Source: Pelagibius sp. CAU 1746
GTDB taxonomy: Bacteria; Pseudomonadota; Alphaproteobacteria; Kiloniellales; Kiloniellaceae
Reading direction: 5' to 3'
DNA length: 64,000 nucleotides
NCBI RefSeq assembly: GCF_039839785.1
Contig: NZ_JBDOQT010000002.1
Location: forward strand, 832,971-896,970
Shown here: in pieces, positions 41,982 to 64,000 of the stretch
How positions within the stretch are numbered: the stretch's first letter is position 1
Layout of the letters: each line of letters starts with the position of its first letter
Position numbers and translations under genes: made by a program
Notes under the pieces: model-generated
Told to the model about the DNA's origin: nothing
The model's database searches: none
The model's input: the letters and a program-made list of their open reading frames with translations, nothing else

Positions 41982-42199
41982 CGGGGGATACCTCTTCGTC
42001 TGTTTAGTGCGGCCGGGGGGAAGGACCGCAGCCTGTCTTGAGCTTCTGATTACGCTACGCAGCAGACCCCGGCGGCATCCCCTCCGGCGGCTATTTTTCC
42101 CCGCAGCGGCCGGGCGGCAGCGCCTGCCGCCGGGCCCCGGAGCCGGCCAAACGCCGTGGCCCGTTGCACGGCGCAGCCTCAAAGCGCAGACTTGGGGTC

Positions 42200-44993: not shown

Positions 44994-45039
44994 AGTTGCG
45001 ATCGCACGATCTGGCTGCACGCGAAGGGTTCGGGCTACC

Positions 45040-46221
45040 ATGCCGCCAGGTTTCGATCCCGCGCAGACAGCGGCGAGAGGCTCGCCACCGGTTCGAGACA
45101 TGGCAGAACAGTCGCAGCTCTACGAGGTGTCCGGCCTGGCGCCGGACTGTCTGGAGGCCCTGGTCAGCAGCGGCCTGGTGGATGACGTCGCCGACCCTTC
45201 GAGCCTCGACCCGCGACCCTACCGCTACGCCGAGGGCGAATACATCTGCCGGCGCGGAGACCCGGCCCGCTGCCTCTGGGTCATCGTCACCGGTTCGGTC
45301 GCCATCAAGGAGCATGACCGCACGCTCTTCGTCCGCCGGCGCAGCGAGGTCATCGGCGAGCAGCACCTGGTCGGCAACGGCTATCAGCGGATCTACGACA
45401 TCGTCGCCAACGAAAGCTGCGTCGAGGTTCTGGTCATCGACCGGGAAAAGATCGAGAGTCATCCCGAAGTCGGCGTTCTGTGGAAGAACATCGCCAAGAT
45501 CATCTCCCTGAAGCTGCGTAACGCCAGCCACAAGACCTCTTCGCTCAGCCGGCAGCTGGCCGACGACACCCGCATCCTGCATGCCTACACCAACGAGTAC
45601 GCGCTGAGCCGGCGTCTGCGTGCGGGCGGCGAGCACCAGACCGCCTACGCCGTCGAGCGCGCTATCATCTGGTTCTCCGACATCGTCGACTTCAGCCGCC
45701 ATACCCTGAACAGTACCCCGGACCGCATCGCCGATATCGTCCAACGCTTCTTCAACGCCCAGACGCTCCCGATCCTCCGGCGCGGCGGCCATATCGACAA
45801 GTTCATCGGCGACGGCCTCATGGCCTTCTGGATGCTGCCGGGCAACGGCGGCAACGCCCGCAGCGAATGCGTGGAAGCCCTGCGCGCCGCCGAAGAAGCC
45901 GTCAAGGCGGTCGCCGCCATCAAGATCGGCACCGCGCCGCTGTCACTGCGCGTGGGCCTCCATATCGGCCTGGTGCTGAGCGGCGACTTCGGCTCCACCA
46001 CCCGGCACCAGTTCACCCTCATCGGCCGGGAGGTCAACAAGGCGGCCAGGCTGGAGCAGCTCCATGCCGAGGATATCCTGGAAAGCCCGGAGGACCTGGG
46101 CGCGATCCGCATCAGCCGCGAATTCCAGGAGGAACTGGGCAGCCTCGACCGCAAGAAGTACGCCAGGCGCCTCGTCGCCCGCGCCAAGAACATCGGCGAG
46201 ATGGACGTCTTCACCGCTTAG
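45040..46221 (+). CDS. Cyclic-nucleotide-binding domain fused to class III nucleotidyl cyclase
   Basis: A 393-residue soluble protein. The N-terminal cNMP-binding fold (about 50-160) has YAEGEYICRRGDPARCLWVI then TGSVAIKEHDR. The C-terminal cyclase (about 200-370) has IIWFSDIVDFSRHTL, HIDKFIGDGLMAFW and NKAARLEQLHAEDI, so both metal Asp, the Lys and the Asn/Arg pair are present. Feedback by its own product is possible (inference). The start is the ATG at 45040 after AAGGG; the ATG at 45100 is the alternative. The stop overlaps the convergent permease gene by four bases. Confidence 0.88.
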   Translation: MPPGFDPAQTAARGSPPVRDMAEQSQLYEVSGLAPDCLEALVSSGLVDDVADPSSLDPRPYRYAEGEYICRRGDPARCLWVIVTGSVAIKEHDRTLFVRRRSEVIGEQHLVGNGYQRIYDIVANESCVEVLVIDREKIESHPEVGVLWKNIAKIISLKLRNASHKTSSLSRQLADDTRILHAYTNEYALSRRLRAGGEHQTAYAVERAIIWFSDIVDFSRHTLNSTPDRIADIVQRFFNAQTLPILRRGGHIDKFIGDGLMAFWMLPGNGGNARSECVEALRAAEEAVKAVAAIKIGTAPLSLRVGLHIGLVLSGDFGSTTRHQFTLIGREVNKAARLEQLHAEDILESPEDLGAIRISREFQEELGSLDRKKYARRLVARAKNIGEMDVFTA

Positions 46222-48214: not shown

Positions 48215-48694
48215 CTATCCCTTCCGCCCCAGGCGGTCGAGCAGGCGCAGCAGGTCGCGCTGCTCCTTGTCGGTGAGACCGGCCAGGGTGTCGCGGGAGA
48301 TTTCCGGACCGACCTCGACCAGATCGCGGGCCAGTTCGTGGCCGTCGTGGGTGAGTTGCACCAGGCGGCGGCGGCCGTCGGCGGGGTCGGTGCGCACGGC
48401 GACCAGGCCGCGCTGGGCGAGGCGCTGCACCACGCCCAGCACCGTGGCCGGGTCCATGGCCACCAGATCGCCCAGCCTGGTCTGGGCGATCTCGCGCCGC
48501 TCCAGCAGGGTCACGAGGACAGAGAACTGCTGCGGCGTCAGGTTGCGCGCGCCGATCTTCGACTGGAAGACCTCGCTGGCGTACTGATGGGCGCGGCGCA
48601 GCAGGAAGCCGATCTGCCGCTCCAACCGGTAGTCGGAGGGCGCCTCTGCCTCCGGCGACTCGACCGCCGGCGCGTCTGTGGGAGGCCGGCTCAC
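48215..48694 (-). CDS. MarR-family transcriptional regulator
   Basis: A 159-residue regulator with the MarR winged helix: LTPQQFSVLVTLLERREIAQ, LGDLVAMDPATVLGVVQRLA and the wing RTDPADGRRRLVQLT. It starts with GTG at 48692-48694, overlapping the enamidase-like stop (GTGA), so it is the last gene of the catabolic cluster and the obvious candidate regulator of it. MarR proteins often bind aromatic acids. Confidence 0.88.
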   Translation of the reverse strand: MSRPPTDAPAVESPEAEAPSDYRLERQIGFLLRRAHQYASEVFQSKIGARNLTPQQFSVLVTLLERREIAQTRLGDLVAMDPATVLGVVQRLAQRGLVAVRTDPADGRRRLVQLTHDGHELARDLVEVGPEISRDTLAGLTDKEQRDLLRLLDRLGRKG

Positions 48695-49869
48695 GCGACC
48701 GCCGCCCCAACGACTTCGGCCAGGGTTTCGGCCGGCGGCGTGTTGCGCGAGCGCCCGCAGCGCACCACCCCGTCGATGATGACCATGGAGATGCCCGGCA
48801 GGTCGCCGAGGCGCACCGAGTCCAGCAGCGTCTTGCCGGCGGTGTGCTGGGCCTTGTCCATGATGACGAAGTCCGCCGCCCGGCCGACCTCGACGAGGCC
48901 GCAGTCCAACTCGCGCATCCGCGCGGTGTTGCCGGTGGCAAAGCAGAATACCGTCTCCGCCGGCACCTCGCCGATGGCGGACAAGAGAGAAATCACCCGC
49001 AGGATGCCCAGCGGCTGCACGCCGGAGCCCGCCGGCGAGTCGGTGCCGAGGATGATGCGCTCGGGCTGGCCCAACTCCATGGCCGTGCGCATGGCATAGA
49101 GCGCGGCCAGTTCGTTGCCGTTGTGGACGATCTCCACCGCGCGGCTGCAGCTCTCGCAGAGGCAGCGAATCTGGGTCAGCGGCAGGGCGGTGTGGCCGCC
49201 GTTGATGTGGCCGATGACATCTGCATCCGCTTCCAGCACCACGTCGGCGTCGATCAGGCCGGAACCGGGGATCGAGGGGCCGCCGGTGTGGATGGTGCTC
49301 TGGATGCCGTACTTGCGCGCCCAGGCGACCATCTTCTTGGCCTCCTCGCCCTGCTTCACGCCGCCCAGGCCGACCTCCCCCAACAGCTTCACGCCGGACT
49401 CGGCAAGCTGCTTGAAGTCCTCCTCCTCCATGCCCTTTTCGATCACCGGGGCGCCGGCGTGCACCTTCACCCCGCCGAAGCGCATGTTGGAGAAGGCGCG
49501 CTGGGCGGTGATCGCCAGGGCTTTCAGGCCGACGATGTCCTTGGGCCGGCCCGGCAGGTGCACCTCGCCGGCGGAGATCATGGTGGTGACGCCGCCGTTC
49601 AGGAAGGAGTCGATCCAGTTGATCTGGCTCTGGCGCGGCGTCCAGTCGCCGAAGACCGGGTGCACATGGCTGTCGATCAGGCCCGGCGCCAGGGTGGTGC
49701 CCTTGGCGTCGATGGTCTTGTCGGCACCGCTCGTGTCGACCTCTGCGGCCTTGCCGACCTCGGCGATGCGCCCGTCCACGGCGACGATGGTGTCGGCGTC
49801 GAGAATCGGCTGCCCCAGGTCGCCGGAGAGCAGCAGGCCGATGTTCTTGATGACTAGCTTTTCGCTCAT
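48691..49869 (-). CDS. ena: Enamidase-like amidohydrolase (6-oxo-tetrahydronicotinate opening)
   Basis: A 392-residue amidohydrolase-superfamily metalloenzyme. The metal site GLIDSHVHPVFGD (His68, His70) is followed by TTMISAGEVHLPGRPKDIVG, VKVHAGAPVIEKG, TIHTGGPSIPGS, IGHINGGHTA and IILGTDSPAGSG. These segments closely recall the enamidase of Eubacterium barkeri, which hydrolyses 1,4,5,6-tetrahydro-6-oxonicotinate to 2-formylglutarate and ammonia. Upstream genes for a Mo hydroxylase and a 6-hydroxynicotinate-reductase-like protein support this. The match is from memory of the family, not a search. Confidence 0.75.
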   Translation of the reverse strand: MSEKLVIKNIGLLLSGDLGQPILDADTIVAVDGRIAEVGKAAEVDTSGADKTIDAKGTTLAPGLIDSHVHPVFGDWTPRQSQINWIDSFLNGGVTTMISAGEVHLPGRPKDIVGLKALAITAQRAFSNMRFGGVKVHAGAPVIEKGMEEEDFKQLAESGVKLLGEVGLGGVKQGEEAKKMVAWARKYGIQSTIHTGGPSIPGSGLIDADVVLEADADVIGHINGGHTALPLTQIRCLCESCSRAVEIVHNGNELAALYAMRTAMELGQPERIILGTDSPAGSGVQPLGILRVISLLSAIGEVPAETVFCFATGNTARMRELDCGLVEVGRAADFVIMDKAQHTAGKTLLDSVRLGDLPGISMVIIDGVVRCGRSRNTPPAETLAEVVGAAVA

Positions 49870-49881
49870 GGCAGGTCTCCC

Positions 49882-50583
49882 TTACACCGCCAGATACTGC
49901 TGGCGGACCTCGTCGTTCTCTTCCAGCTCGCGCATGGAGCCTTCGTAGCGGATGTGACCGGTCTCGATGACGTAGGCGCGGTCGCTGACCAGGCCGGCGA
50001 AGTAGAGGTTCTGCTCCGACAGCAGGACCGGGATGCCCTGGGCCTTGATCTCCTTCACCACCTTGATGATCTGCTCCACCACCACCGGTGCGAGGCCTTC
50101 CGAGGGCTCGTCCAGCAGGATGCAGCCCGGGTTGCCCATCAGGGTGCGGGCGATGGTCAGCATCTGTTGCTCGCCGCCGCTGAGCGTGCCGCCGGGCCGC
50201 CGCCGGGCTTCCGCCAAGTTGGGGAAGAGGTCGAACATGTCGTGCACGGTCCAGTTTCGCGTGCCCGCCCGGCCCGGCTGCCGGCCGCAGTCCAGGTTCT
50301 CCTGCACGGTGAGACGGGTGAAGATGCGCCGCTCCTCCGGCACGTAGCCGAGGCCGCGCCGGGCGATGCGGTGCGCCGGCTCGCCCAGGATCTCCTCGCC
50401 GTCGTAGGCGATGGAGCCCTGCGTGACGCGCACCATGCCCATGATCGACTTGATGGTGGTCGACTTGCCGGCGCCGTTGCGTCCCACCAGCACCACGATC
50501 TCGCCCTTGGACAGGGTCAATGAAACGTCGGTCAGGATGTGCGCCTGTCCGTAGTAGCTGTGAATACCCCTGATCTCGAGCAT
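49882..50583 (-). CDS. livF: Branched-chain-type ABC transporter ATPase LivF
   Basis: A 233-residue ATPase with Walker A VGRNGAGKSTTIKSI, signature LSGGEQQML and Walker B GCILLDEPSEGLAP; short, as LivF is. One of two ATPases of the HAAT importer encoded here, which probably takes up the aromatic substrate of the cluster. Twelve bases separate it from the enamidase-like gene. Confidence 0.93.
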   Translation of the reverse strand: MLEIRGIHSYYGQAHILTDVSLTLSKGEIVVLVGRNGAGKSTTIKSIMGMVRVTQGSIAYDGEEILGEPAHRIARRGLGYVPEERRIFTRLTVQENLDCGRQPGRAGTRNWTVHDMFDLFPNLAEARRRPGGTLSGGEQQMLTIARTLMGNPGCILLDEPSEGLAPVVVEQIIKVVKEIKAQGIPVLLSEQNLYFAGLVSDRAYVIETGHIRYEGSMRELEENDEVRQQYLAV

Positions 50584-50588
50584 GGCCC

Positions 50589-51407
50589 TCAGTCCTTGGG
50601 CTTCTTGTCTTGGCCGTAGACCTGACCCTCGCCGAGGTAGGTCTTGAGCACCAGCGGATCGCTGCGGATCTGCCCTGCGTCACCCTCGGCGATCAGCTCT
50701 CCGCGGCTCAGCACGATGATGCGGTCGGCGTGGCTGAAGACGATGTCCATGTCGTGCTCGGTGAACAGCACGGCGACGTCCAGCTCGTGCGCCAGGCGCG
50801 CGGCGAGCCCCATGAGTTCCACACGCTCGCGCGGCGCCATGCCCGCCGTCGGCTCGTCCATCAGCAGGACGCGCGGCTCGTTGCCCAGCGCCACCGCCAG
50901 CTCGACCCGCTTCAGATCGCCGTAGGCCAGCACGCCGCAGGGCCGGTCCGCCTGCCCCGCCATGCCGACCAGGTCGAGCAGTTCCAGCGCCTTGGCGCGG
51001 TGACGGTTTACCGCGCTGCGCGTGAAGGAGAACAGCTCGCGGTCTTGGCTCATCAGCACCATGGCGACGTTCTCGGCCACGGTCATGGAGGGGAAGGTGG
51101 CGGTGATCTGGAAGGTGCGCCCGACGCCGCGCCGCCAGATCTGCGCCGGCGAGCGGCCGACCAGCTCCTCCCCGGCCAGCTTCACGCTGCCCCGGTCGGG
51201 CCTGATCTGGCCGTTCAGCATGTTGAAGCAGGTGCTCTTGCCGGCGCCGTTGGGACCGATGAGGGCCAGCAATTCGCCCTCCGCCACCTTGAAGTTCACG
51301 TCCTTCACCGCCTGCACGCCGCCGAAGGCCTTGCTGAGGCCGCTGACTTCCAGAGCGGGGACGGCCAGTGCCGGCATCCCGGCGGTTTTCGCTTCGGTGA
51401 GGCTCAT
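50589..51407 (-). CDS. livG: Branched-chain-type ABC transporter ATPase LivG
   Basis: A 272-residue ATPase with Walker A IGPNGAGKSTCFNML, Walker B VLLMDEPTAGMAP and switch FTEHDMDIVF. The C-terminal extension is typical of LivG. The ABC signature, normally LSYG-like, reads LAYGDLKR. The start is the ATG at 51405-51407, which overlaps the stop of the fused permease gene (ATGA). Confidence 0.93.
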   Translation of the reverse strand: MSLTEAKTAGMPALAVPALEVSGLSKAFGGVQAVKDVNFKVAEGELLALIGPNGAGKSTCFNMLNGQIRPDRGSVKLAGEELVGRSPAQIWRRGVGRTFQITATFPSMTVAENVAMVLMSQDRELFSFTRSAVNRHRAKALELLDLVGMAGQADRPCGVLAYGDLKRVELAVALGNEPRVLLMDEPTAGMAPRERVELMGLAARLAHELDVAVLFTEHDMDIVFSHADRIIVLSRGELIAEGDAGQIRSDPLVLKTYLGEGQVYGQDKKPKD

Positions 51408-53311
51408 GCGCGCTGCTCCTTCCGGGGGGCGGCCGAGCGCAGCTCGCCGGGCGAGACTTCCAGCTTCAGATACCGCCCGGCGTAGTGCCGCGCCGCACCG
51501 CCCAGCCCTTGCGGGAAGAGCAGCACCAGGGCGACGATGACCACGCCCAGCAGCAGGCGCCAATACTCGAAGGTGATCAGCTCGTCGTGCAGCCAGGTGA
51601 AGGCGGCGGCGCCCACCACCGGACCGGAAAGCGATTCGATGCCGCCCAGCAGCACCATGAGCAGGGCGTCGAAGGAGCGTGGGATCGACATTTCGTCGGG
51701 AAAGACCGAGCCCTTGGAAAAGGCGAAGAGCCCGCCGGCCAGCCCGGCCATGACACCGGCGAAGACAAAGGCGGCGAGTTGCTGGCGCTTGATGTCGATG
51801 CCGATGGCCGCCGCCCGCAGGGCAGAGTCGCGGGTCGCGCGCAGGCCGTAGCCGAAGGGGGCGAAGACCACCCGCCGGATGAGGAAGATGCCGGCCAGCG
51901 CGACCACGAAGGCGATGTAGTAGTAGGCGACGGAGCCCGAGGCCCAGGCCGCCGGCCAGATGCCGAGCAGACCGTCGTCGCCGTTGGTGACGTCCGACCA
52001 CTGGAAGACCACCGACCAGGCGACCTGTGCGAAGGCCAGGGTCAGCATGGCGAAGTAGACGCCGGTGAGGCGCACGCAGAACCAGCCGATCACGAGGGCC
52101 AGCAGCCCCGCGCCCAAGGGCGCCAGCAGCAGCGCCAGCTCGAAGGGCGTGGCGGCGTAGGTGACCAGCAGGGCCGCCGCGTAGGCGCCGCCGCCGTAGA
52201 AGGCGGCATGGCCGAAGGAGACCAGCCCGCCGGTCGACATGAGGAAATGCAGGGAGGTGGCGAAGAGCGCCAGCACCAGGATGTCTGTGGCCAGGACCAG
52301 GACGAAATCGTCAGCCAGCAGCGGCAGCGCCGCCAGCAGCGCCACCAGCGCGGCGACGAAGATCTTGTAGTGCGGGCCCGCCGGCAGCACCACCTGGACG
52401 GCCCCGGTTTCGGCCTTCTGGCCGATGGTCTCCGGCCGGCCCAGCAGGCCGGTGGGGCGGACGATGAGGATCACCGCCATGAGGATGAACATCAGCACCA
52501 GGGTGCCGTTCGGCCAGACCAGAATGCCGAAGGTGTTGAGCTCCGAGATCAGGACTGCGGCCAGAAAGGCGCCGAAGATGGAGCCCATGCCGCCGACCAC
52601 GGTGACCACGAAAACCTCCGCCAGGATGCCGAAGTCCATCAGCAGGTTGGCGTCGCCCTTGGGCAGCTGGATGGCGCCGCCCAGGCCGGCCAGCGCCGAG
52701 CCCAGCACGAAGACGCCGGTGAAGAGCAGCGACTGGTTGACGCCCAGGGCGCCCACCATCTCGCGGTCCTCGGTGGCCGCGCGCACCAGCACGCCCCAGC
52801 GGGTGCGGTTGAACAGCATCCAGAGTGCGAAGAGGACAAGGGGTCCGATGGCGATCAGCGCCAGGTCGTAGGTCGGCATGGGAACGTCGAAGATCCGCAC
52901 GATGCCGGTCAGCCCCGGCGCGCGGGGGCCCAGCAGGTTCTCCGCCCCCCAGAACCAGAAGACCACGTCCTGCACGATAAGGATCACGCCGAAGGTGGCG
53001 ATGAGCTGGAACAGCTCCGGCGCCTTGTAGAGGCGCCGGAGAACAATCGTCTCGACCAGCAGGCCGACGAGGCCGACCGCGAGCGCGGCAACGAGTAGCG
53101 AAAGCCAGAACCCCAGGGCGCCCCCGCCCAGGGCAGCGCCCAGATTGTGCACCAGGGAATAACCGAAATAGGCGCCCAGCATGTAGAAGGAGCCGTGGGC
53201 GAAATTCACCACGCGGGTCACGCCGAAAATGATCGACAGGCCCGAGGCGGCGAGGAAGAGCGCCGAGGCGCTCGCCAGCCCGGAAAGGAACTGAACCAGA
53301 TAGACACCCAT
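51404..53311 (-). CDS. Fused branched-chain-type ABC permease LivH-LivM
   Basis: A 635-residue membrane protein made of two permeases usually encoded separately. Residues 1-295 are LivH-like (LFLAASGLSIIFGVTRVVNF at the start, TVVGGMGSIFGAFLAA). Residues 310-620 are LivM-like (SFGHAAFYGGGAYAAALL, GLRATRDSALRAAAIGID, GSVFPDEMSIPRSFD). The junction is a polar linker around GQKAETGAVQVV. One chain thus supplies both halves of the transport channel. Confidence 0.92.
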   Translation of the reverse strand: MGVYLVQFLSGLASASALFLAASGLSIIFGVTRVVNFAHGSFYMLGAYFGYSLVHNLGAALGGGALGFWLSLLVAALAVGLVGLLVETIVLRRLYKAPELFQLIATFGVILIVQDVVFWFWGAENLLGPRAPGLTGIVRIFDVPMPTYDLALIAIGPLVLFALWMLFNRTRWGVLVRAATEDREMVGALGVNQSLLFTGVFVLGSALAGLGGAIQLPKGDANLLMDFGILAEVFVVTVVGGMGSIFGAFLAAVLISELNTFGILVWPNGTLVLMFILMAVILIVRPTGLLGRPETIGQKAETGAVQVVLPAGPHYKIFVAALVALLAALPLLADDFVLVLATDILVLALFATSLHFLMSTGGLVSFGHAAFYGGGAYAAALLVTYAATPFELALLLAPLGAGLLALVIGWFCVRLTGVYFAMLTLAFAQVAWSVVFQWSDVTNGDDGLLGIWPAAWASGSVAYYYIAFVVALAGIFLIRRVVFAPFGYGLRATRDSALRAAAIGIDIKRQQLAAFVFAGVMAGLAGGLFAFSKGSVFPDEMSIPRSFDALLMVLLGGIESLSGPVVGAAAFTWLHDELITFEYWRLLLGVVIVALVLLFPQGLGGAARHYAGRYLKLEVSPGELRSAAPRKEQRA

Positions 53312-53411
53312 CAGGCGGTCTCGATCATCGATGGTGAGTTCATGAAACGTAAGAAGCCCGCGGCGGAGCAGGCGCCCTCCTGGCGCCCGCTCCCCAAGCG
53401 GCGGCGTGGCC

Positions 53412-54620
53412 TCAACCGCCGCTTGCCGGCCGCAGAGTCTTCACCACATCGTCGGGCGGCAGGTAGTCGCCGCCTTCCTTGTAGCTCCAATCGATCATGA
53501 CGCCCTTGCCGTCCTGCAGCGCCGTGGTGCCGACCCAGGCCCCCATGGTGGACTGATGGTCGATGGCGCGGAACGCCACCGCGCCCGAGGGGGTGTCGAG
53601 TTCCAGACCCTCGAAAGCTGCGACCAGCGCCTCGGTCTCGGTTCCGCCGGCCTTCTCGATCGCCGCGGCGATCGACAGCATGGCGTTGTAGCCGACCAGG
53701 GAGCCGACGCGCGGATAGTCGTCGAACTTCGCCTGATAGGCCTTCACGAAGGCGTTGTGCTCTGGCGTATCGATGGCGTACCAGGGGTATCCGGTGACGA
53801 TCCAGCCTTCCGGCGCCTCGGCGCCGAGCGGATCCAGGTATTCCGGCTCACCGGTCAGGAGGCCCAGCACCGTGCGGTCCTTGAACAGCTCGCGCAGCGT
53901 GCCCTCACGCACGAACTTGGCGAGGTCGCTGCCGAAGGTGACGTTGTAGATGCCGTCGGGCTTCATCGCCTCCAGGGCCTGCGCCTCGGCGGCGGCATCG
54001 ATCTTGAAGAGCGCCGGCCACTGCTCGCCGACGAACTCAACGTCCGGCATCTTGGCCTTCAGCACCTCCTTGAAAGCGGCCACGGCGTCCTTGCCGTAGG
54101 CGTAGTTGGGCGCGATGGTCGCCCAGCGCTTGGCGCCGCTCTTGGCCGCGGCCTCGGCCAGCATGGCGGCCTGCATGTAGGTGCTGGGGCGCAGGCGGAA
54201 GGTGTAGCGGTTGCCTTCCGCCCAGACCAGGGAGTCGGCCAGCGGCTCGGCCGCCAGGTAGAGGCGCTTCTTCTGCCCGGCGTAGGAGCCCAGCGCCAAG
54301 CCGACGTGGGAGAACAGCGAGCCGGAGATCAGCACCACTTTTTCCTTGGTGAAGAGCTCCTCGGCGTAGCGCACCGCCTCGCCCGGCTTGCCCTGGTCGT
54401 CGCGGGAGACGATCTCCAGCGGCTTGCCCAGGACGCCGCCCTTGGCGTTGATCTGCTCGACCGCCAACTCGGCCCCCTGCCTGTAGGGAATGGTAAACGC
54501 CGGCAGGTTCTTGTAGCTGTTGATGTCGCCGATGCGGATGGTTTCCTGTGCGGCGGCGGCACCCGGCAAGACGAGAGAGGCGGCAAGCGCCGCCGCCCCT
54601 AAAATCCTTGTGATCCCCAT
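53412..54620 (-). CDS. Branched-chain-type ABC transporter substrate-binding protein
   Basis: A 402-residue periplasmic binding protein (Peripla_BP_6/LivK type) with a signal peptide ending GAAAA. It has IRIGDINSYKNLPAFTIPYR, QINAKGGVLGKPLEIVSRDD, then KRWATIAPNYAYGKDAVAAF. Relatives bind amino acids, amides or aromatic acids; context favours an aromatic or heterocyclic acid. A strong AGGAGG precedes the ATG at 54618-54620. Confidence 0.9.
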   Translation of the reverse strand: MGITRILGAAALAASLVLPGAAAAQETIRIGDINSYKNLPAFTIPYRQGAELAVEQINAKGGVLGKPLEIVSRDDQGKPGEAVRYAEELFTKEKVVLISGSLFSHVGLALGSYAGQKKRLYLAAEPLADSLVWAEGNRYTFRLRPSTYMQAAMLAEAAAKSGAKRWATIAPNYAYGKDAVAAFKEVLKAKMPDVEFVGEQWPALFKIDAAAEAQALEAMKPDGIYNVTFGSDLAKFVREGTLRELFKDRTVLGLLTGEPEYLDPLGAEAPEGWIVTGYPWYAIDTPEHNAFVKAYQAKFDDYPRVGSLVGYNAMLSIAAAIEKAGGTETEALVAAFEGLELDTPSGAVAFRAIDHQSTMGAWVGTTALQDGKGVMIDWSYKEGGDYLPPDDVVKTLRPASGG

Positions 54621-54689
54621 AAACTGCCTCCTGTTGGTCCGTTTGCTGTTCGCTTGCCGGTTCTTTCTGTGCCCCCGGCCTTCATGAAT

Positions 54690-54772
54690 GTCATGCCCGA
54701 GCTCGTCTCAAGCATCCAGGGCGACCGCACTCGTCGTTTGCCCCGGACCCCCGGCACAAGGCCAAGGGTGAC
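54690..54772. repeat. Palindromic intergenic repeat, copy 4 (diverged)
   Basis: Starts GTCATGCCCGAGCTCG and ends CACAAGGCCAAGGGTGAC. The right end is the inverted form of the GTCACCCTTGGGCTTG start seen in copy 1. It lies in the 179-bp gap between the Rieske oxygenase and binding-protein genes and may separate two transcripts. Confidence 0.6.
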
Positions 54773-54799
54773 GATTGGCGGTGTTGCCCCTTCATAACG

Positions 54800-55858
54800 T
54801 CATGACACCGCCTGCATGGCTTCCTCGTCTTCCGAAAGCGCGCGCTCCTGCGCCGCCATCTCGGCGATGATACGGCGCAGGTGATTTGGTCCGCGGTCGA
54901 TGGCGATGCGCAGCGGCCGGCGCGCCGGCGGCTTAGCCTCGCGCGCCTGGATCGCCTCCAGAATCGCCTTGTCCTCGGCGAAGGCGATGCGGAACTGCTC
55001 GTTCATGCGCTCGCCCATCTCTTCGTCGTCCAGCGCGATGTTGCGCAGGTGCATCCAGTGGTCGACCGTCCGGGTCTCGGAAACCGGCGTCAGAAAATGC
55101 AGCGCGAAGAGCCGCAGGCCGCGGTCGCGCTCGGCCTCGCCGATGGCCTCCTCGGTGGCGGCGCTGCCGAAGTCGATGACCGCCACGTTGGGCGCGTGCA
55201 GATAGTAGTAATGCCAGCGGTCGACGTTGCCGGCGAAGTTGCCGAAGGCCTTGAAGAAGCCGACCGGTGGCGCGTCGCGGATCCAACGCCAGGTCGTCAC
55301 CATGCGGCCCTCGCGCGCGCAGTCGATGGGGACGTCCTCGCAGGCTGCGTTGCCCAGGGTCGTCGGGTGCACGAAGCTGACATGGGCGGGATCGCAGAGA
55401 TTGTCGGCGACCGGCAGGTAGTTGCATTCCAATTCCAAGGCGTCGCCGTGGTGCGGCATCCACTTCGGGTCGGTGAATTCCGGCATGTCGAAGACCCGTG
55501 AGACGTCGGCCTTCTCCGCATCTCCCATCCAGATCCACAGGATGCCGTGGCGTTCGTGCAGCGGATAGGCGCGCACCCAGGCCGAGGACGGCAGGTTGCT
55601 CTGACCGGGAATCCTCACACATTTTCCGTCGCAGCCGAAGGTCATGCCGTGATATCCGCATTCCACCGCGTCGCCCTTGAGCCGCCCCCTGGAGAGCGGC
55701 AAACGCTTGTGCGGGCATTCGTCGGTCAGCGCCACGGCTTGGCCCGTTTCCGTGCGGTAGACGACGATGTCCTCGTCCATGATGGTGAGGGGCGTGAGCT
55801 GCCGGCCGAAGTTCTTCGACCAGCCGGCGACGTACCAGGCGTTGCGGACGAACGTCAT
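54800..55858 (-). CDS. Rieske non-heme iron oxygenase (VanA-like)
   Basis: A 352-residue oxygenase alpha subunit. The Rieske centre is C48-x-H50 with C67-x2-H70 (DECPHKRLP and VECGYHG), and the mononuclear iron site is N153/D156/H159/H164 (NLCDPAHVSFVH). The N-terminus FVRNAWYVAGW and the size resemble O- and N-demethylases such as VanA more than ring dioxygenases. No beta subunit is present. The ferredoxin gene 20 bases upstream and the reductase gene next to it would supply electrons. Substrate unknown. The start is the ATG at 55856-55858. Confidence 0.88.
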   Translation of the reverse strand: MTFVRNAWYVAGWSKNFGRQLTPLTIMDEDIVVYRTETGQAVALTDECPHKRLPLSRGRLKGDAVECGYHGMTFGCDGKCVRIPGQSNLPSSAWVRAYPLHERHGILWIWMGDAEKADVSRVFDMPEFTDPKWMPHHGDALELECNYLPVADNLCDPAHVSFVHPTTLGNAACEDVPIDCAREGRMVTTWRWIRDAPPVGFFKAFGNFAGNVDRWHYYYLHAPNVAVIDFGSAATEEAIGEAERDRGLRLFALHFLTPVSETRTVDHWMHLRNIALDDEEMGERMNEQFRIAFAEDKAILEAIQAREAKPPARRPLRIAIDRGPNHLRRIIAEMAAQERALSEDEEAMQAVS

Positions 55859-55878
55859 GATCTCTCCCCTCCTCGCCG

Positions 55879-57834
<1,956 letters not shown>

Positions 57835-57844
57835 CTTCTCATCC

Positions 57845-58426
57845 TCATCTCAGGCCATCCTCCCCCTTGATGTCTTCCGCGCGCAAGCCGCCCATGCGGT
57901 CGTGGATGCGCCCGCCGCTGGTCATCGCCAGGATGAACACCAGCTCGTCGGCCTCCGGCGCGCCGGGCACGCCGACCTCGACGGCATTGAAGTGCCCGCG
58001 CACGTAAGAGGCGTTGATATGGGTGATCGGCACGTCGATGCGCGCACCGGCGGGGCCGACCTTCTTGGCCGAGGGCACGATGGCCCTGGCGTCGCCCAGC
58101 AGTTCGCGCATAGCGTAACCGCCGGGCACGTGCCACAGCGCACCGTGCTCCAGCTCGCCGGCGCCGCCGACGATGGAGGCCTTGCCGAAACCGGAGATGC
58201 GCGCCTTGTTGCCCCCCATGGCGCCGACCAGCCGTTCGGCCATCTCCAGACCCAGCGGCTTCAGTTCCTCCATGTAGGGCTGCAGCTCCTCGACGTAGCG
58301 CCCGGAGAAAGGATTGGCGATGACCACGGCGGCGGAGCCGACCAGCAAAGGCTCGGCAGCAACCGGCCCGCCCTCGTGGTGGATCTCCTCGACGTTGGTC
58401 ACGACTTTGCGAACTTCGACAGTCAC
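57845..58426 (-). CDS. DUF1185 (amino acid synthesis) family protein, copy 1
   Basis: A 193-residue paralogue of the following gene: RKVVTNVEEIHHEGG, AVVIANPFSGRYVEEL, FGKASIVGGAGELEHGA and the C-terminus DIKGEDGLR. It starts with GTG at 58424-58426 behind AAGGAGGAG. Only ten bases separate the two paralogues. They may form a hetero-oligomer or act on successive intermediates; neither can be told from sequence. Confidence 0.82.
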   Translation of the reverse strand: MTVEVRKVVTNVEEIHHEGGPVAAEPLLVGSAAVVIANPFSGRYVEELQPYMEELKPLGLEMAERLVGAMGGNKARISGFGKASIVGGAGELEHGALWHVPGGYAMRELLGDARAIVPSAKKVGPAGARIDVPITHINASYVRGHFNAVEVGVPGAPEADELVFILAMTSGGRIHDRMGGLRAEDIKGEDGLR

Positions 58427-58439
58427 CCCGACTCCTCCT

Positions 58440-59339
58440 TTACGCCGCGCTCGGCAGGCTGGACAGCAGGGGCAAAGCCCCGATTGCCTCGGCCCGCCCG
58501 CGCAGGAACAGCGCCGCCGCTTCGATGAGGCCTTCGGCCTGCATCTCGGCGCTCAGCGCCTGCCCGTGCCGCAGCGCCGTGGCGACTTCCGCCTCGGTGA
58601 GCTTGCCGACCGCGACGGTCGCCAGGCGCTCCCCGAGATCGCTCTCCGGATCGATCTCCACGGCCCGGCGGCGCATCACCAGCGGGTGCCCGGGCAGGTC
58701 TACCGCATTGGCGATCAGCGTCGCGGCAACGTCGGCCTGCGCGGCGCTGCGTGCGAAGACCGTTACCGCGTCGGCGATGCCCAGCGAAAAACTGCGCCCG
58801 CCTTGTCCTTTGGTGGCGCGCCCCGAGGTGGCGATACCGCGGACCGGCAATTCCGATGTCACCACTGCGCGACCCCCAAGGGACAATGGCTGATGCGGGG
58901 CGGCGACCTGGGCGACCAGGCCGCAGGCGAGGCTTTCGCCGGGCGTCAGGTACAAAGCGATGTCGCCGCCGTTGTTCACATAGGCGCGGGTGAGATCCGC
59001 GGCTTCGCTCATCGCTGCCAGCACATGATCGGCCACGGCGCCGGCGACGGCGGCCATGGGCGTGACGAACACCGCGCGGTGGGGATGACAGGCCGCCGCC
59101 ATGCGCTGCGCCACCGGGCCGGAAAACGACGGCGTGTCCCTGCGCAGCGGCCGGCGCAGCGCCGTCAGCTCCGCCACCAGGTCGGGCAGCACCTCCCGGA
59201 AGCATTCCGCCGCCGCGTCATAGGCATGCCGCACCTCGGCGCGCGCGCCGAAAGCCTCGATCATCAGGTCGATGGGCCCCTCCTGCAGATGCAGGCGGCC
59301 GTCCGGCAGGTCGCGGCGGAAAAAGCTGGGTCGAGTCAT
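58440..59339 (-). CDS. UPF0280-family protein (ApbE-like fold)
   Basis: A 299-residue protein with the UPF0280 pattern: ITPMAAVAG-like FVTPMAAVAGAVADHVL, AYVNNGGDIALYL, GIATSGRATKGQGGRSF and GIADAVTVFARSAAQADVAA. The family shares a fold with ApbE, which attaches FMN to proteins. The ATG follows the stop of the reductase-like gene with no gap (TGA-ATG), so its job is probably tied to that protein, possibly flavin attachment (inference). Confidence 0.82.
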   Translation of the reverse strand: MTRPSFFRRDLPDGRLHLQEGPIDLMIEAFGARAEVRHAYDAAAECFREVLPDLVAELTALRRPLRRDTPSFSGPVAQRMAAACHPHRAVFVTPMAAVAGAVADHVLAAMSEAADLTRAYVNNGGDIALYLTPGESLACGLVAQVAAPHQPLSLGGRAVVTSELPVRGIATSGRATKGQGGRSFSLGIADAVTVFARSAAQADVAATLIANAVDLPGHPLVMRRRAVEIDPESDLGERLATVAVGKLTEAEVATALRHGQALSAEMQAEGLIEAAALFLRGRAEAIGALPLLSSLPSAA

Positions 59340-60905
59340 TCAGAGCCCCGCCTTCTTGCCGGGAAGCTTGTTTAGGGGCGACAGCGGCCAGGGGTTCTCC
59401 GCCTTCAGGTCGGTCACGCGGATGCGCTCCCCGGCGCCGCGGGTCTTGACGACGTCGGCCAGCGACTGCACCGACTTCATGTGGCCGCCCAGTTCGGCGT
59501 AGACCTCGTGCGGCATGGTGAATTCGATGGGTCCGACGATGGCCGGCGTCGGCACGTAGCCGAAGGCGTTGTCGGGCATGTCCAGCACGTCGACCATGAT
59601 GGTGATGCCGCCGCCCGGCCAGACATAGGCCTTGGCGCCGCCGGCGGTGACGCGGGTCAGCGCGTCCTTCACCGAGCGCGTCAGGCGCACCGGGTTCTCC
59701 GTCGCCCCGGCGCGCAGGCTGCCGCCCGCCCCGGCCATGAACAGCACCGAGGACAGGGCCGGTTCGCAGTTCTCGCCGATACGGTCGACCACCACCTTGA
59801 CCGCCGCCGGCATCTCGGCCTCTTGGGGTTTCAGGTCGTCGTCCAGCTCGAACCAGGCGGCGTGCTCGCCGGTGGTGCTGACCATCAGCAGGCGCAGGCC
59901 CGGCCAGGCGGTCTTGGGGTCGATCTTGTCGATGATCGACAGGGGATCGCTGATGTTGGTGCCGCCCCAGCCGGTGCCGGGCTCGGCCACCTGGAAGTAG
60001 CGCCCGGGCGTCGAGCGCCGCCCGCGCACGCGGATGCCGCTGGGCTTCATGTCCAGGAACTTGCCGGCCTGGTGCTCGGTCAGTACGCCGGTGATGTGGT
60101 CGTCGACCACGATGACCTCGTCGACGTGGCCGATCCATTGCTGGGCGAAGATGCCGATGGTCGCCGAGCCGCAGCCGACGCGCATGCGCTCTTCCTTCAC
60201 GCCGTTGATGATCGGCGCCCGGCCCGCCTGGATGGTCAGCTCGGCGCCGCCGTCGATGGTGAGGTCCACCGCCTGCTTGTTGCAGAGGTCGAGCATCATC
60301 TGGCAGGTGACGTTGCCTTCCTTCTTGCTGCCGCCGGTCAGGTGGCGCACGCCGCCCAGGGCCAGCATCTGCGAGCCGTATTCCGCCGTGGTGACGTGGC
60401 CGACCTGCTCGCCCTGGCAGCGCACGGCGGCCTGCTCCGGGCCCAGGTGGCGGTCGGTGTCGATCTTCACCTTCACGCCGCAGTAGCTGAAGATGCCCTC
60501 GGTCACCACGGTCACCATGTCGACGCCTTCCACCTTGGACGACACGATGAAGGGCGCGGGCTTGTAGTCCGGATAGGTAGTGCCGGCGCCGATGCCGGTG
60601 ACGAAGGCTTCCGCCCCCTGGACCAGGCTGCCGTCCCACTCCGCCCCCGCGCCTTCGGTGGCCAGGAAGGGCACCATCTCGGCCTCGCGCTCGGCCGCCT
60701 GGCGCGCCAGCAGGAAGGGGTCCATGCGCACCAGGGCGTTGTCGACGTTGCCGTAGCGGTCGCAGGCTCCGGTCTTGCCCGGGCGGATGCGGCACAGCAC
60801 CGGACAGGCGTCGCAGACGACGATGCCTCCGTCCTTGTTGTCGGCGTTCTTGCCCCCCGCGTCCTTGCCGCGCGCTTCGGTCTTTTCGGCTTGCGTCGTG
60901 CTCAT
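59340..60905 (-). CDS. 6-hydroxynicotinate reductase-like iron-sulfur protein
   Basis: A 521-residue protein. A Cys cluster near the N-terminus (C31, C34, C38, C48; CDACPVLCRIRPGKTGACD) suits a [4Fe-4S] centre. The long remainder has EGIFSYCGVKVKIDTDRHLG, IGIFAQQWIGHVDEVIVVDD and GTGWGGTNISDPLSIIDKI. It resembles proteins named 6-hydroxynicotinate reductase, which in E. barkeri reduce 6-hydroxynicotinate to the 6-oxo-tetrahydro form with ferredoxin. GSLRAGATENP (Thr402) is loosely like a flavinylation motif. Naming rests on recall plus the Mo hydroxylase and enamidase-like neighbours. Confidence 0.72.
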   Translation of the reverse strand: MSTTQAEKTEARGKDAGGKNADNKDGGIVVCDACPVLCRIRPGKTGACDRYGNVDNALVRMDPFLLARQAAEREAEMVPFLATEGAGAEWDGSLVQGAEAFVTGIGAGTTYPDYKPAPFIVSSKVEGVDMVTVVTEGIFSYCGVKVKIDTDRHLGPEQAAVRCQGEQVGHVTTAEYGSQMLALGGVRHLTGGSKKEGNVTCQMMLDLCNKQAVDLTIDGGAELTIQAGRAPIINGVKEERMRVGCGSATIGIFAQQWIGHVDEVIVVDDHITGVLTEHQAGKFLDMKPSGIRVRGRRSTPGRYFQVAEPGTGWGGTNISDPLSIIDKIDPKTAWPGLRLLMVSTTGEHAAWFELDDDLKPQEAEMPAAVKVVVDRIGENCEPALSSVLFMAGAGGSLRAGATENPVRLTRSVKDALTRVTAGGAKAYVWPGGGITIMVDVLDMPDNAFGYVPTPAIVGPIEFTMPHEVYAELGGHMKSVQSLADVVKTRGAGERIRVTDLKAENPWPLSPLNKLPGKKAGL

Positions 60906-60915
60906 CTCGTCATCC

Positions 60916-63702
60916 TCACACTGCGCCCGCTTCGCGCAGGGCCGCGCGCACCCGGTCCGGCGTCGCCGGCGTCCGCGTCAGACGCAGGCCGGTCGCCTGG
61001 TAGACGCCGCCGAAGATCGCCGGCGCGGTCGCGATCAGCGAATGCTCGCCCACGCCCTTGGCGCCGTAGGGGCCCAGCGGCTCCGGGTCTTCCACCAGAA
61101 TGCTGGTGATCTCCGGCATGTCGCCGAAGGTGGGGATCAGGTAGTCGTGCAGGTTCTCCGTGCGCCCCGGCAGGTATTCCTCCATCAGCGCCAGGCCGAG
61201 GCCCTGGGCGATGCCGCCGTGGATCTGGCCTTCCACCAGGGTCGGGTTGACCGCACGGCCGACATCGTGGGCGGCGGCCATGCGCAGCACCTTGATCGTG
61301 CCCAGCTCCAGGTCGACCTCGACCTCGGCGATCTGGGCGGCGAAGCCGTAGGTCGCGTAGGGGTCGCCCTGGCCGTTCCCGTCCAGCGGCGAGGTCGGCG
61401 GATCGAAGGTGCCGCTGCCGCAGAGCACGTCGCCGCGCGCGTCCTCCGGCAATTCCGCCAGGTCGATGCGTCGCACCTCCCCGCCGTCCTGCACCGACAG
61501 CTTGCCGTCGCTCAACTCCAGGCGCGCATCCTCGCCGGCATTGGCGAGGCGCAGGATCTGGGCACGCAGGTCGCACCCGGCCAGTTCCGCCGCCTTGCCG
61601 GAGATGAAGGTCTGGCGCGAGGCCGAGGTCTTGCCGGCGTCGGCCGTCAGCGCCGTGTCGCCCATGACGACGCGCATCTGCTGCACCGGCAGGCCCAGCG
61701 CATCGGCGGCGATCTGCGCCATGACGGTGTTGGAGCCCTGGCCGATGTCGACGGCGCCGTTGTAGAGCGTGAGCTTGCCGTGCCTGTCGAGCGCCACCGA
61801 CAGGGTGGAGGGATTGGACATGGAGGTGTTGCCGCAGCCGTACCAGACGCAGCCGATACCGACGCCGCGGCGCCGCCGTCCCCCGTCTTCGTTGAACAGG
61901 TCCGCCGCCGCACGCCAGTCCTTCCACGTGGGCCGCAGGGCGTCCAGGCAGTCGGCGAGACCGGCGGAAGCCGTCAGCACCTGCCCCGTCGCCGTGGCGT
62001 CGCCGACGCGGATCGCGTTGCGATAGCGGAACTCCAGCGGGTCGAGACCGAGCTGCTCGGCCAGGTCGTCCATCAGGGCCTCGTGCGCCAGGGCGGACTG
62101 CGGCACGCCGAAGCCGCGGAAGGCGCCGGCCGGCGGCGCGTTGGTGAAGCGCCCGGCCGAACGGGCCAGCACGTTGGGGATCTTGTAGGGGCCGCTGCAG
62201 TGCACCGGCACCCGGTCGGCCACCGTCGGCCCCCAGGAGGCATAGGCCCCGGTGTCGAAGTCGCCGTCGAAGACCAGCGCCGTCAGCCTACCGTCCGCAT
62301 CGCAGCCGGCCCGCGCCGTCACCCGCGAGGCGTGGCGCTTGGTGGAAGATGCCATGGACTCCGGCCGGGTGTACTCACAGCGCACCGGCCGCTCCGTGAG
62401 CCAGGCAGCCAGCCCGACGAGAGGATGCAGCGAGAGGTCCAACTTGCCGCCGAAGCCGCCGCCGCAGGCCGAGGGGATGATGCGCACCTTGTCCTTGTCG
62501 AGGCCCAGGATCGCCGCCGTCTCGTCGCGGTCCATGTAGGGCGCCTGGGTGGTCACCCAAACCTCAAGCTTGCCGCCCTTGCGCTCGGCGTAGCCGGCTT
62601 CGGGCTCGATGTAGGCATGCTCGATGAAAGGCGTGGCGGTGCTGATCTCGGACGTCAGCGGTGAGGCCGCCAGCGCCGCCTCGGCGGCGCCCTTGTTGAC
62701 GAAGCCGCGCGCCAGCACGTTGTCGGCGCGGCCTTCCTGCACCAGCGGCGTATCGTCGGCGCAGAAGTCGGTGACGGCGTCTTCCGCCTGCCAGGCGATC
62801 GGCAGGTCTTCTTCCGCCAGCGACCAGATCGCGCGGCGCTCGCCGACCAGCGCCAGCACCGCCTCGCCGCGGTAGCGCACCCGCCCCTGGGCCAGCACCG
62901 GCTGGTCCTTGATGTGCGGATAAACGCCGAAGCACATGTTGCCGGGCCCCGAGTTGCCTGGAAGGTCGGCGGCAGTGAGGATACGCTCCAGGCCGGGCGT
63001 CCGCGCCACCACCGCCTCGAGGTCGCCCAGGGTGAAAGTGGCGCGGGCATGGGGCGCGCGGACCACGCGCAGCCACAGCGCGCCTTCCGGCGCGGTGTCG
63101 GCGCCGTAGAGCTCGGCGCCGGTCACCTTGGCGAGGCCGTCGGTCTTGGCGAAGCGCGCGCCCACGGCGCAGCCGACCTCGGGGTCGGTGAGCGGCGCGT
63201 CGGTCGACCGCATCTCCGCCGCGGCGCAAACCGCCTCGACGATCTTCTGGTAGCCGGTGCAGCGGCACAGCACGCCGCCCAGCGCGTCCTGCACTTCCTG
63301 CTTCGCCGGGGCGGCGGTCTGCTTCAGCAGCGAGGCCGCGGCCATCAGCATGCCCGGCGTGCAGATGCCGCACTGGGCCGCGCCGTGATCGAGGAAGGCC
63401 CGCTGCAGGCGCTGCCCATCCGGGTCGCCCATCAAGCCTTCCACCGTCGTCACCTGCCGCCCCTCGACCTGGCCGCAGGCCATGAGGCAACTGCACATTT
63501 GCTCGCCGTCGACCAGCACCGTGCAGGCACCGCAGTCGCCGGCGTTGCAGCCCACCTTGGTGCCGGTGCGGCCCAGCGCATAGCGCAGCGCGTCACTCAG
63601 CCGGTCCAGGGGATCGACGCTCACCGTGACCGCCTGGCCGTTGAGGGTGAAGCGGATCTGCTGCCCACCCTCGGCGAGGCTCTGCTGCAGCGCGGCGTCC
63701 AT
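60916..63702 (-). CDS. Molybdenum hydroxylase: fused 2Fe-2S and molybdopterin subunit
   Basis: A 928-residue xanthine-dehydrogenase-family enzyme. Residues 1-160 are the small subunit with two [2Fe-2S] sites (C52/C57/C60/C72 and C111/C114/C146/C148). Residues 175-928 are the molybdopterin part (SACGGGFGGKLDLSLHPLVG, GAFRGFGVPQSALAHEALMD, and catalytic Glu about 886 in GAKGVGEHSLIA). FAD is on a separate subunit encoded just upstream. Likely reaction is hydroxylation of an N-heteroaromatic ring, such as nicotinate to 6-hydroxynicotinate; purine or aldehyde oxidation is not excluded. The ATG at 63700-63702 overlaps the FAD-subunit stop. Confidence 0.88.
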   Translation of the reverse strand: MDAALQQSLAEGGQQIRFTLNGQAVTVSVDPLDRLSDALRYALGRTGTKVGCNAGDCGACTVLVDGEQMCSCLMACGQVEGRQVTTVEGLMGDPDGQRLQRAFLDHGAAQCGICTPGMLMAAASLLKQTAAPAKQEVQDALGGVLCRCTGYQKIVEAVCAAAEMRSTDAPLTDPEVGCAVGARFAKTDGLAKVTGAELYGADTAPEGALWLRVVRAPHARATFTLGDLEAVVARTPGLERILTAADLPGNSGPGNMCFGVYPHIKDQPVLAQGRVRYRGEAVLALVGERRAIWSLAEEDLPIAWQAEDAVTDFCADDTPLVQEGRADNVLARGFVNKGAAEAALAASPLTSEISTATPFIEHAYIEPEAGYAERKGGKLEVWVTTQAPYMDRDETAAILGLDKDKVRIIPSACGGGFGGKLDLSLHPLVGLAAWLTERPVRCEYTRPESMASSTKRHASRVTARAGCDADGRLTALVFDGDFDTGAYASWGPTVADRVPVHCSGPYKIPNVLARSAGRFTNAPPAGAFRGFGVPQSALAHEALMDDLAEQLGLDPLEFRYRNAIRVGDATATGQVLTASAGLADCLDALRPTWKDWRAAADLFNEDGGRRRRGVGIGCVWYGCGNTSMSNPSTLSVALDRHGKLTLYNGAVDIGQGSNTVMAQIAADALGLPVQQMRVVMGDTALTADAGKTSASRQTFISGKAAELAGCDLRAQILRLANAGEDARLELSDGKLSVQDGGEVRRIDLAELPEDARGDVLCGSGTFDPPTSPLDGNGQGDPYATYGFAAQIAEVEVDLELGTIKVLRMAAAHDVGRAVNPTLVEGQIHGGIAQGLGLALMEEYLPGRTENLHDYLIPTFGDMPEITSILVEDPEPLGPYGAKGVGEHSLIATAPAIFGGVYQATGLRLTRTPATPDRVRAALREAGAV

Positions 63703-64000
63703 CACGCGGCCTCCTGCGACAGCAGGGCCTCGACCCCGCGGCGCAGCAGCGCCACCGCGGCCTCGCGGCGATAGTCGGCGGTGCCGCGGATATCGTCGAT
63801 GGGCGTCAGGGGCCCAAGTGGCTCTACCAACTGTTCCTCGCCGATGCGCGGCAGCAAATCCTCATCGAAGGGCCGGCCCTCGAAGGCCGCCTCGACGGCC
63901 GGCAGGCGCAGGGCGCGCGCGGCGCAGGAGCCGACGGCGACCCGGGCCTTGGCAACGTTGCCCTTGTCGTCGATGTCGACCAGCAGCGCCGCCATGACGA
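63702..64000 (-). CDS. Molybdenum hydroxylase FAD-binding subunit (C-terminal part only)
   Basis: The last 98 or so residues are in the window: VDIDDKGNVAKARVAVGSCA followed by LRLPAVEAAFEGRPF and IDDIRGTADYRREAAVALLR. This is the C-terminal domain of the FAD subunit of CO dehydrogenase/xanthine dehydrogenase-type enzymes. The frame stays open to the edge. Its TGA overlaps the start of the Mo subunit, so the two are coupled. Confidence 0.88.
   Translation of the reverse strand, partial: VMAALLVDIDDKGNVAKARVAVGSCAARALRLPAVEAAFEGRPFDEDLLPRIGEEQLVEPLGPLTPIDDIRGTADYRREAAVALLRRGVEALLSQEAA

Follow-up and report, generated by a model that had tools for sequence, protein, structure and literature searches.

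Nicotinate fermentation in Eubacterium barkeri reportedly draws on a molybdenum (Mo) hydroxylase, a 6-hydroxynicotinate reductase (Hnr) and an enamidase. An aerobic route through tetrahydro-6-oxonicotinate (THON) has already been described in Azorhizobium and Bradyrhizobiaceae, and the accessible part of that work places a Bradyrhizobiaceae Hnr homologue, 42% identical to E. barkeri Hnr, in a conserved cluster (PMC3511419). Here we describe a related cluster of Pelagibius sp. CAU 1746, located in a 64,000-nucleotide stretch of DNA (contig NZ_JBDOQT010000002.1 of assembly GCF_039839785.1, positions 832,971 to 896,970 of the forward strand) that was analyzed at its full length and is referred to below as the window. 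In the reading that we favor, with a probability of about 0.55, the cluster encodes an importer-fed, oxygen-tolerant pathway for pyridine carboxylates organized in two layers, in which a front end composed of a Rieske oxygenase and a periplasmic substrate-binding protein (SBP) would supply the known core, and in which the protein UPF0280 would take part in the maturation of Hnr. Gene coordinates from the FAD subunit to MarR are window positions on the minus strand.

The core pathway

The core comprises the Mo hydroxylase, a 929-aa protein in which the 2Fe-2S and Mo domains are fused (60916..63705; Pfam MoCoBD_1/2, Fer2 and Fer2_2), together with an Hnr-like protein, called Hnr below (59340..60905, 521 aa), the enamidase (48691..49869) and a LivK-type importer. 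By homology, the Mo hydroxylase would convert nicotinate to 6-hydroxynicotinate, Hnr would reduce this compound to THON with electrons from ferredoxin, and the enamidase would convert THON to 2-formylglutarate, with glutarate as the probable next product. A PDB sequence search aligned the enamidase with E. barkeri enamidase (2vun) at an E-value of 9.2e-110 over 383 residues (residues 4-386 of 392), and the Mo hydroxylase matched nicotinate dehydrogenase 3hrd (A, E 4.5e-71; B, 4.3e-67; D, 7.4e-36), at lower scores than aldehyde oxidoreductases. These similarities support the original prediction from this DNA, which had read hydroxylation, ring reduction and enamide hydrolysis as the first three steps of nicotinate breakdown. 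Judged by its sequences, the core is the already published THON route. Because that route has been published in Azorhizobium and Bradyrhizobiaceae, fermentative-type steps in an aerobe are not a new idea, and the further suggestion that the cluster may define a hybrid route gives way to the THON route that the available text of PMC3511419 already places in aerobes.

Hnr is recognized through its relatives, with homologues of 60-80% identity occurring in 26 of 72,556 plasmid records, of which 17 are annotated as 6-hydroxynicotinate reductase; the window protein shares 95% identity with the Pelagibius marinus protein and 96% with that of a same-genus genome. No Pfam or NCBIfam family matched it, and the PDB sequence search returned no relative (best E 0.66). 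An alignment of 44 sequences (the window protein and 43 of 71 usable locus proteins) contains eight invariant cysteines and an A-G-x-T stretch at positions 399-402, where x is V, A or I and the A, the G and T402 are invariant in 44/44 sequences. A fold search with the model predicted from this alignment (pLDDT 77) returned nothing in the PDB at an E-value of 0.001 or below, so that the fold may be new or the model too weak. The Hnr locus scan of genome contigs covered the best 80 of 588 confirmed stretches, and the 141 Hnr loci used in the comparisons below correspond to 136 distinct ones. At one of the Hnr loci (G025:C1:2969799-2971258) the match to the gene is split into two overlapping pieces, suggestive of a broken frame. 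The Hnr of L056 is 71% identical to that of the window, in a record titled Mesoflavibacter sp. that is perhaps a mislabelled metagenome-assembled genome (MAG). Several Hnr loci (L019-L021, L130-L134, L136-L138 and L140-L143) carry a NicB-like Mo enzyme and show no match to the fused type of Mo hydroxylase.

A Rieske oxygenase paired with a distinct substrate-binding protein

The Rieske protein is an oxygenase alpha subunit of the VanA/DdmC type (54800..55858, with the start corrected to near 55858 from 56083). It shares with VanA/DdmC-type demethylases the Rieske domain (PF00355, 73 bits), which carries the C-x-H ... C-x-x-H motif, and the VanA_C domain (PF19112, 163.5 bits), and its best PDB match is dicamba O-demethylase (DdmC, 3gb4; E 3.7e-41), which makes it a candidate demethylase. 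It differs from that wider group in forming its own orthologue group: within family f19 (394 genomes, 393 genera), 24 genomes encode a protein at least 56% identical to it, and the other Rieske matches lie at 46% or below. Among 58 relatives, a Rieske protein of at least 63% identity occurs in nine, all of which encode Hnr and enamidase (present overall in 27/58 and 20/58, respectively). Hnr is encoded somewhere in the genome in 23 of the 24 f19 genomes with the orthologue, and in 5 of 17 f19 genomes with a distant Rieske protein only (17 tested of 60 such genomes); five loci around the distant f19 genes held no cluster gene beyond weak ATPase and further Rieske matches.

The Rieske gene also has a frequent neighbor, the SBP gene (53412..54620). 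Of the eight genomes of the genus, five have the Rieske gene immediately ahead of the SBP gene (the window, P. marinus, G003, G004 and G006), and the same order occurs in three genomes of a second genus of the family (G010, G013 and G017; G015 has the Rieske gene too), in Sulfitobacter and in the two MAG loci L029 and L033 (42-46% identity). In the 24 f19 genomes, the SBP gene adjoins the Rieske gene in 22, and Hnr lies within the fetched stretch in 17. To place the SBPs, a tree was built from 88 rows plus the PDB entry 3i45 (89 in total) and then from 91 rows plus 3i45 (92), leaving out matches not over 200 bits, proteins shorter than 330 aa and those with a stop. The tree of 92 rows divides into a clan of 36 SBPs, of which 34 are Rieske-linked (22 of these 34 were contributed by the f19 Rieske search), and a clan of 55 Rieske-free SBPs together with 3i45. 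The split has support of 100/99 and needs three label changes, compared with a shuffled mean near 27.7, and ten SBP positions, including A128, F205 and E212 of the window SBP, have a residue common to 85% or more of one clan and to no more than 10% of the other. P. litoralis and L142 account for the two Rieske-free SBPs in the Rieske-linked clan. Three Rieske-free f19 loci added after the first tree (L231, L235 and L237), in which no Rieske motif occurs in any frame of at least 220 aa, fell into the Rieske-free clan; they belong to one genus and hence count as one independent case, but since they do not group with their family in the SBP tree, taxonomy alone does not explain the split.

In an Hnr tree of 72 of the 88 loci (those dropped had no Hnr in the stretch, or one that was short or contained a stop), Rieske linkage requires five label changes, and a single clade of Rieske-linked Hnr was rejected (p-AU 5.08e-5; 28 versus 44 rows, the first group including two Rieske-free SBP-clan members added after the SBP tree was known). 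Because Rieske-linked Hnr proteins are not one clade, the Rieske and SBP genes keep company across different Hnr backgrounds, and as one module they look new. These results bear on the simpler view of an ordinary nicotinate cluster, whose importer takes up nicotinate and whose Rieske enzyme is loosely attached or catalyzes a side reaction. The window SBP is 62% identical to 3i45 (E 7.5e-158), presumably a nicotinic acid-binding protein of Rhodospirillum rubrum, for which no naming paper was found in the open-access literature searched, and in P. litoralis the same cluster lacks the Rieske protein, ferredoxin and reductase (no Rieske match in its genome at E 1e-40); both facts fit the simpler view. 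We nonetheless consider it improbable, as the Rieske-SBP pairing crosses separate Hnr lineages and the SBPs of the three later-added Rieske-free loci joined the Rieske-free clan.

The genes for a 2Fe-2S ferredoxin (55879..56193; Fer2; fdx_isc 61.6 bits, below the cut-off of 132) and a thioredoxin-reductase-like ferredoxin reductase (56190..57221; Pyr_redox_2 78 bits; TIGR01292 105 bits, below the cut-off of 343) adjoin the Rieske gene in the window as well as in P. marinus and G004. G003 and G006 have the Rieske gene with neither of them in the cluster, and the second genus has the ferredoxin but lacks this reductase. Both occur, with no Rieske gene, at two Bosea Hnr loci, where the reductase is cut by the contig end (L071) or in pieces (L096). 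We therefore rejected the idea that these proteins partner the Rieske enzyme only, given the Rieske gene alone in G003 and G006 and the Bosea loci; they may work with Hnr, with the Rieske enzyme or with both.

Candidate substrates of the front end

Since 3i45 lies in the Rieske-free clan, the SBPs of the Rieske-linked clan should bind another compound that enters the same core. The Rieske-SBP module is thus suggested to take up and oxidize a nicotinate-type compound distinct from that of the plain importer, probably one that carries a methyl group. Most simply this would be a methylated acid of the nicotinate type; trigonelline is the best known of those in nature, and it fits but is unproven. 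In the pathway that we favor, the private LivK-type SBP subfamily would bring in such a compound, most likely trigonelline, the Rieske oxygenase would take off its methyl group with O2, and the resulting nicotinate would enter the core. The proposal made from the DNA letters, of a Rieske step that precedes the core and uses a methylated precursor, thus gains from the pairing with a private SBP subfamily, and its example of trigonelline keeps the status of a candidate.

The hydrolase found next to Hnr varies among lineages. In the 95 of 136 distinct loci with 8.5 kb on both sides, enamidase occurs in 25, HyuA or HyuB in 38, both in none and neither in 32; the HyuA/HyuB genes are annotated as N-methylhydantoinase or acetophenone carboxylase (e.g., L021:19659-23452 and L023:19005-22840). 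The four genomes G010, G013, G015 and G017 of the second genus carry their enamidase gene apart from the Hnr cluster, at a distance of tens of kb or on a different contig, so that "neither" at an Hnr locus does not mean absence from the genome. A restriction of the Rieske gene to enamidase-type clusters held at first (0/38 Hyu-type loci) and was then rejected, when seven f19 loci were found to pair the Rieske gene with HyuAB-type genes in place of enamidase; the Rieske gene is therefore not tied to the THON-hydrolysing enamidase. A different assignment would give the Rieske enzyme some other pyridine, methylated or otherwise substituted, as its substrate (an O-methylated nicotinate, an N-methylpyridone carboxylate or carboxamide, or a different ring acid), and in some lineages the ring opened by the core would not be that of THON. 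The presence of HyuAB instead of enamidase in many Hnr loci, the occurrence of the Rieske gene with both types and the resemblance of the Rieske protein to an O-demethylase all accord with this assignment; the full-length enamidase relative in the window points instead to a 3-carboxylated ring, and we judge the alternative unlikely, if worth keeping in view.

Several observations, the seven Hyu-type loci just described among them, weigh against the two-layered pathway. The Mo hydroxylase scores aldehyde oxidoreductases (1dgj, E 6.2e-118) above nicotinate dehydrogenase 3hrd, P. litoralis retains an SBP of the Rieske-linked clan with no Rieske orthologue, and one f19 genome (G669) bears the Rieske orthologue with no Hnr. 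More generally, the substrate assigned to the cluster derives from sequence comparison. Locus L235, very probably that of Ruegeria pomeroyi DSS-3, has an enamidase-type cluster without a Rieske gene, as do two other genomes of its genus. Both published SPO0826 primers match L235, and they also match a second genome of the genus, G827. According to the available part of PMC8269262, trigonelline supports more effective growth of R. pomeroyi DSS-3 than homarine does. The Rieske enzyme is thus not necessary for trigonelline use there, and this strain may use another trigonelline route. The accessible portion of a transporter paper (PMC10130141) yielded no mention of trigonelline, homarine, nicotin, SPO082 or branched-chain. 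Among the matches listed in our searches of the open-access literature, which also covered UPF0280 and DUF1185, none described a link between the Rieske enzyme and trigonelline, the Rieske-SBP front end or the Hnr-UPF0280 pairing.

UPF0280 as a probable partner of Hnr

UPF0280 is encoded directly beside Hnr in the window (58440..59339; NF003322, 366.8 bits against a cut-off of 290) and shows the same distribution. Hnr occurs in 32 of 398 genomes of the phylum (16 of 213 genera), and exactly these 32 genomes hold a UPF0280 that scores above its cut-off. Matches far below the cut-off were found in G349 and G428, outside the 32 Hnr genomes, and two methanogen control genomes likewise gave a match below it, so that members of the wider family may have further functions. 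In 132 of the 136 distinct loci, and in 127 of the 128 with at least 1 kb downstream, UPF0280 is no more than 3.5 kb from Hnr; the sole exception among the 128 (L100) has it about 5 kb away. With the two genes side by side in 127/128 loci, the arrangement is not due to chance.

To characterize UPF0280, which has no Pfam match, a structural model was generated with AlphaFold from 51 sequences (the window protein and 50 of 73) and reached a pLDDT of 93. The top Foldseek match was a DUF375 protein (2o34; TM-score 0.55 to 0.69), and the 39 matches at ranks 3-41 were all ApbE, Ftp or FmnB flavin transferases (best E 7.5e-6, 7esb); those listed after rank 41 were unrelated, at E 0.28 or above. UPF0280 resembles these transferases in the Foldseek matches of its model and in two stretches, D-x3-T (51/51 sequences) and ATSG (50/51), that look similar by eye to stretches of the two canonical ApbE proteins encoded elsewhere in the genome. 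It differs from them in three respects. Its TM-scores against ApbE-type structures reach no more than 0.28 to 0.45, which indicates a poor overall superposition; the H-x-x-D-P-x-x-G motif, whose histidine has a catalytic role in ApbE, is present in both genomic ApbE proteins and in 0/51 UPF0280 sequences; and an hhalign comparison of the UPF0280 profile with one genomic ApbE gave a probability of 5.8%. Membership of UPF0280 in the ApbE family was rejected on the missing Pfam match, the hhalign result and the missing histidine motif.

Even so, UPF0280 is probably a dedicated flavin-related maturation factor for Hnr, a protein of ApbE-like predicted fold that would load or attach the Hnr flavin. 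That it performs true flavin transfer is a more tentative proposal. E. barkeri Hnr is reported to contain covalently bound flavin. The S-G-A-T sequence is the target of flavin transfer by ApbE, and the A-G-x-T stretch of Hnr, with T402, resembles it only loosely. A speculative extension, of a similarly tentative kind, is that UPF0280 represents a new class of flavin-attaching enzyme that lacks the ApbE histidine motif, acts on Hnr only, possibly at Thr402, and forms with Hnr a pair around which lineages swap hydrolase and front end to fit different pyridine carboxylates. A competing role for UPF0280 is that of an assembly chaperone or structural subunit of Hnr, a role that would account for the lost histidine motif, the missing profile match and the low TM-scores and would leave flavinylation of Hnr to the two canonical ApbE proteins. 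Against it stand the 39 Foldseek matches at ranks 3-41, all flavin transferases, and the D-x3-T and ATSG stretches, and we hold it to be a serious possibility, somewhat short of even odds.

Organization of the cluster and neighboring genes

The catabolic genes form a single minus-strand run from position 64574 down to 48215 in an assembly of 4.66 Mb. Their order is FAD subunit, Mo/FeS hydroxylase, Hnr, UPF0280, DUF1185 a, DUF1185 b, ferredoxin reductase, ferredoxin and Rieske oxygenase, followed by SBP, fused LivHM, LivG, LivF, enamidase and MarR. Gaps from the FAD subunit to MarR measure -4 to 28 bases, the exceptions being 179 bases between Rieske and SBP genes and 100 between SBP and permease genes; gene calls and gap measurement thereby confirm the tight, one-strand arrangement noticed in the original prediction. 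The window end cuts the cluster. The FAD subunit of the Mo hydroxylase (FAD_binding_5 and CO_deh_flav_C) occupies 63702..64000 in the window, its gene extending over 63702-64574 with the start at 64574 (L003:4673-5545), and an IclR gene follows beyond it (64800-65492; locus L003).

In the importer, the LivH and LivM parts are a single protein of 635 aa (51404..53311), in which BPD_transp_2 matches twice and UrtB/LivH and UrtC/LivM profiles fall on separate halves. The ATPases are LivG (50589..51407; ABC_tran and BCA_ABC_TP_C) and LivF (49882..50583; ABC_tran, with UrtE/LivF profiles below cut-off), and a MarR-domain regulator (48215..48694) closes the run. The two DUF1185 (AA_synth) proteins, a (57845..58426; PF06684, 225 bits) and b (57250..57834; PF06684, 242.5 bits), belong to a family represented at least once in 25/25 enamidase-type and 30/38 Hyu-type loci; structures of DUF1185 proteins have been solved, and according to the part of the report available their function is not established (PMC2954203). 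Rfam and tRNA scans of the window gave no match. At lower window positions, on the plus strand, lie an Old yellow enzyme-type oxidoreductase near mycofactocin FadH/OYE type 2, below that model's cut-off (42164-44257), and a protein combining a cyclic-nucleotide-binding domain with an adenylate/guanylate cyclase domain (44899-46221).

Comparison with known systems

The comparisons assign testable roles to uncharacterised proteins, with UPF0280 as a partner of Hnr and the Rieske enzyme and SBP as a methylated-pyridine front end, and they set apart SBP subfamilies that could help to read the substrate from sequence. Trigonelline and homarine have been measured in seawater samples, as the available part of PMC8269262 states, and genes for an oxygenase-first, reductive breakdown of methylated pyridine carboxylates would fill a gap.

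Relative to E. barkeri nicotinate fermentation, a Mo hydroxylase, an Hnr-like protein and an enamidase occur in the window as well, the window Hnr being likened to its counterpart through annotations and a published relative. The later fermentation steps are not evident among the annotated cluster genes, in agreement with what had been noticed from the sequence at the outset, and the window adds an O2-dependent enzyme. The Pseudomonas putida nic pathway shares the 6-hydroxynicotinate intermediate; P. putida decarboxylates it to 2,5-dihydroxypyridine, whereas the window cluster would reduce it (PMC3511419, in its accessible part). The closest systems are the THON clusters of Azorhizobium caulinodans, Bradyrhizobium japonicum, Rhodopseudomonas palustris HaA2 and strain SG-6C, with which the window would share the first three steps, an ABC transporter and conserved unknown proteins that the available text mentions without naming, and for which that text mentions no Rieske front end (PMC3511419). 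The window SBP, moreover, falls in a different clan from 3i45 and nearly all Rieske-free SBPs sampled. Set beside these systems, the Rieske-SBP module and the UPF0280-Hnr pairing are the features of the Pelagibius cluster that look new.

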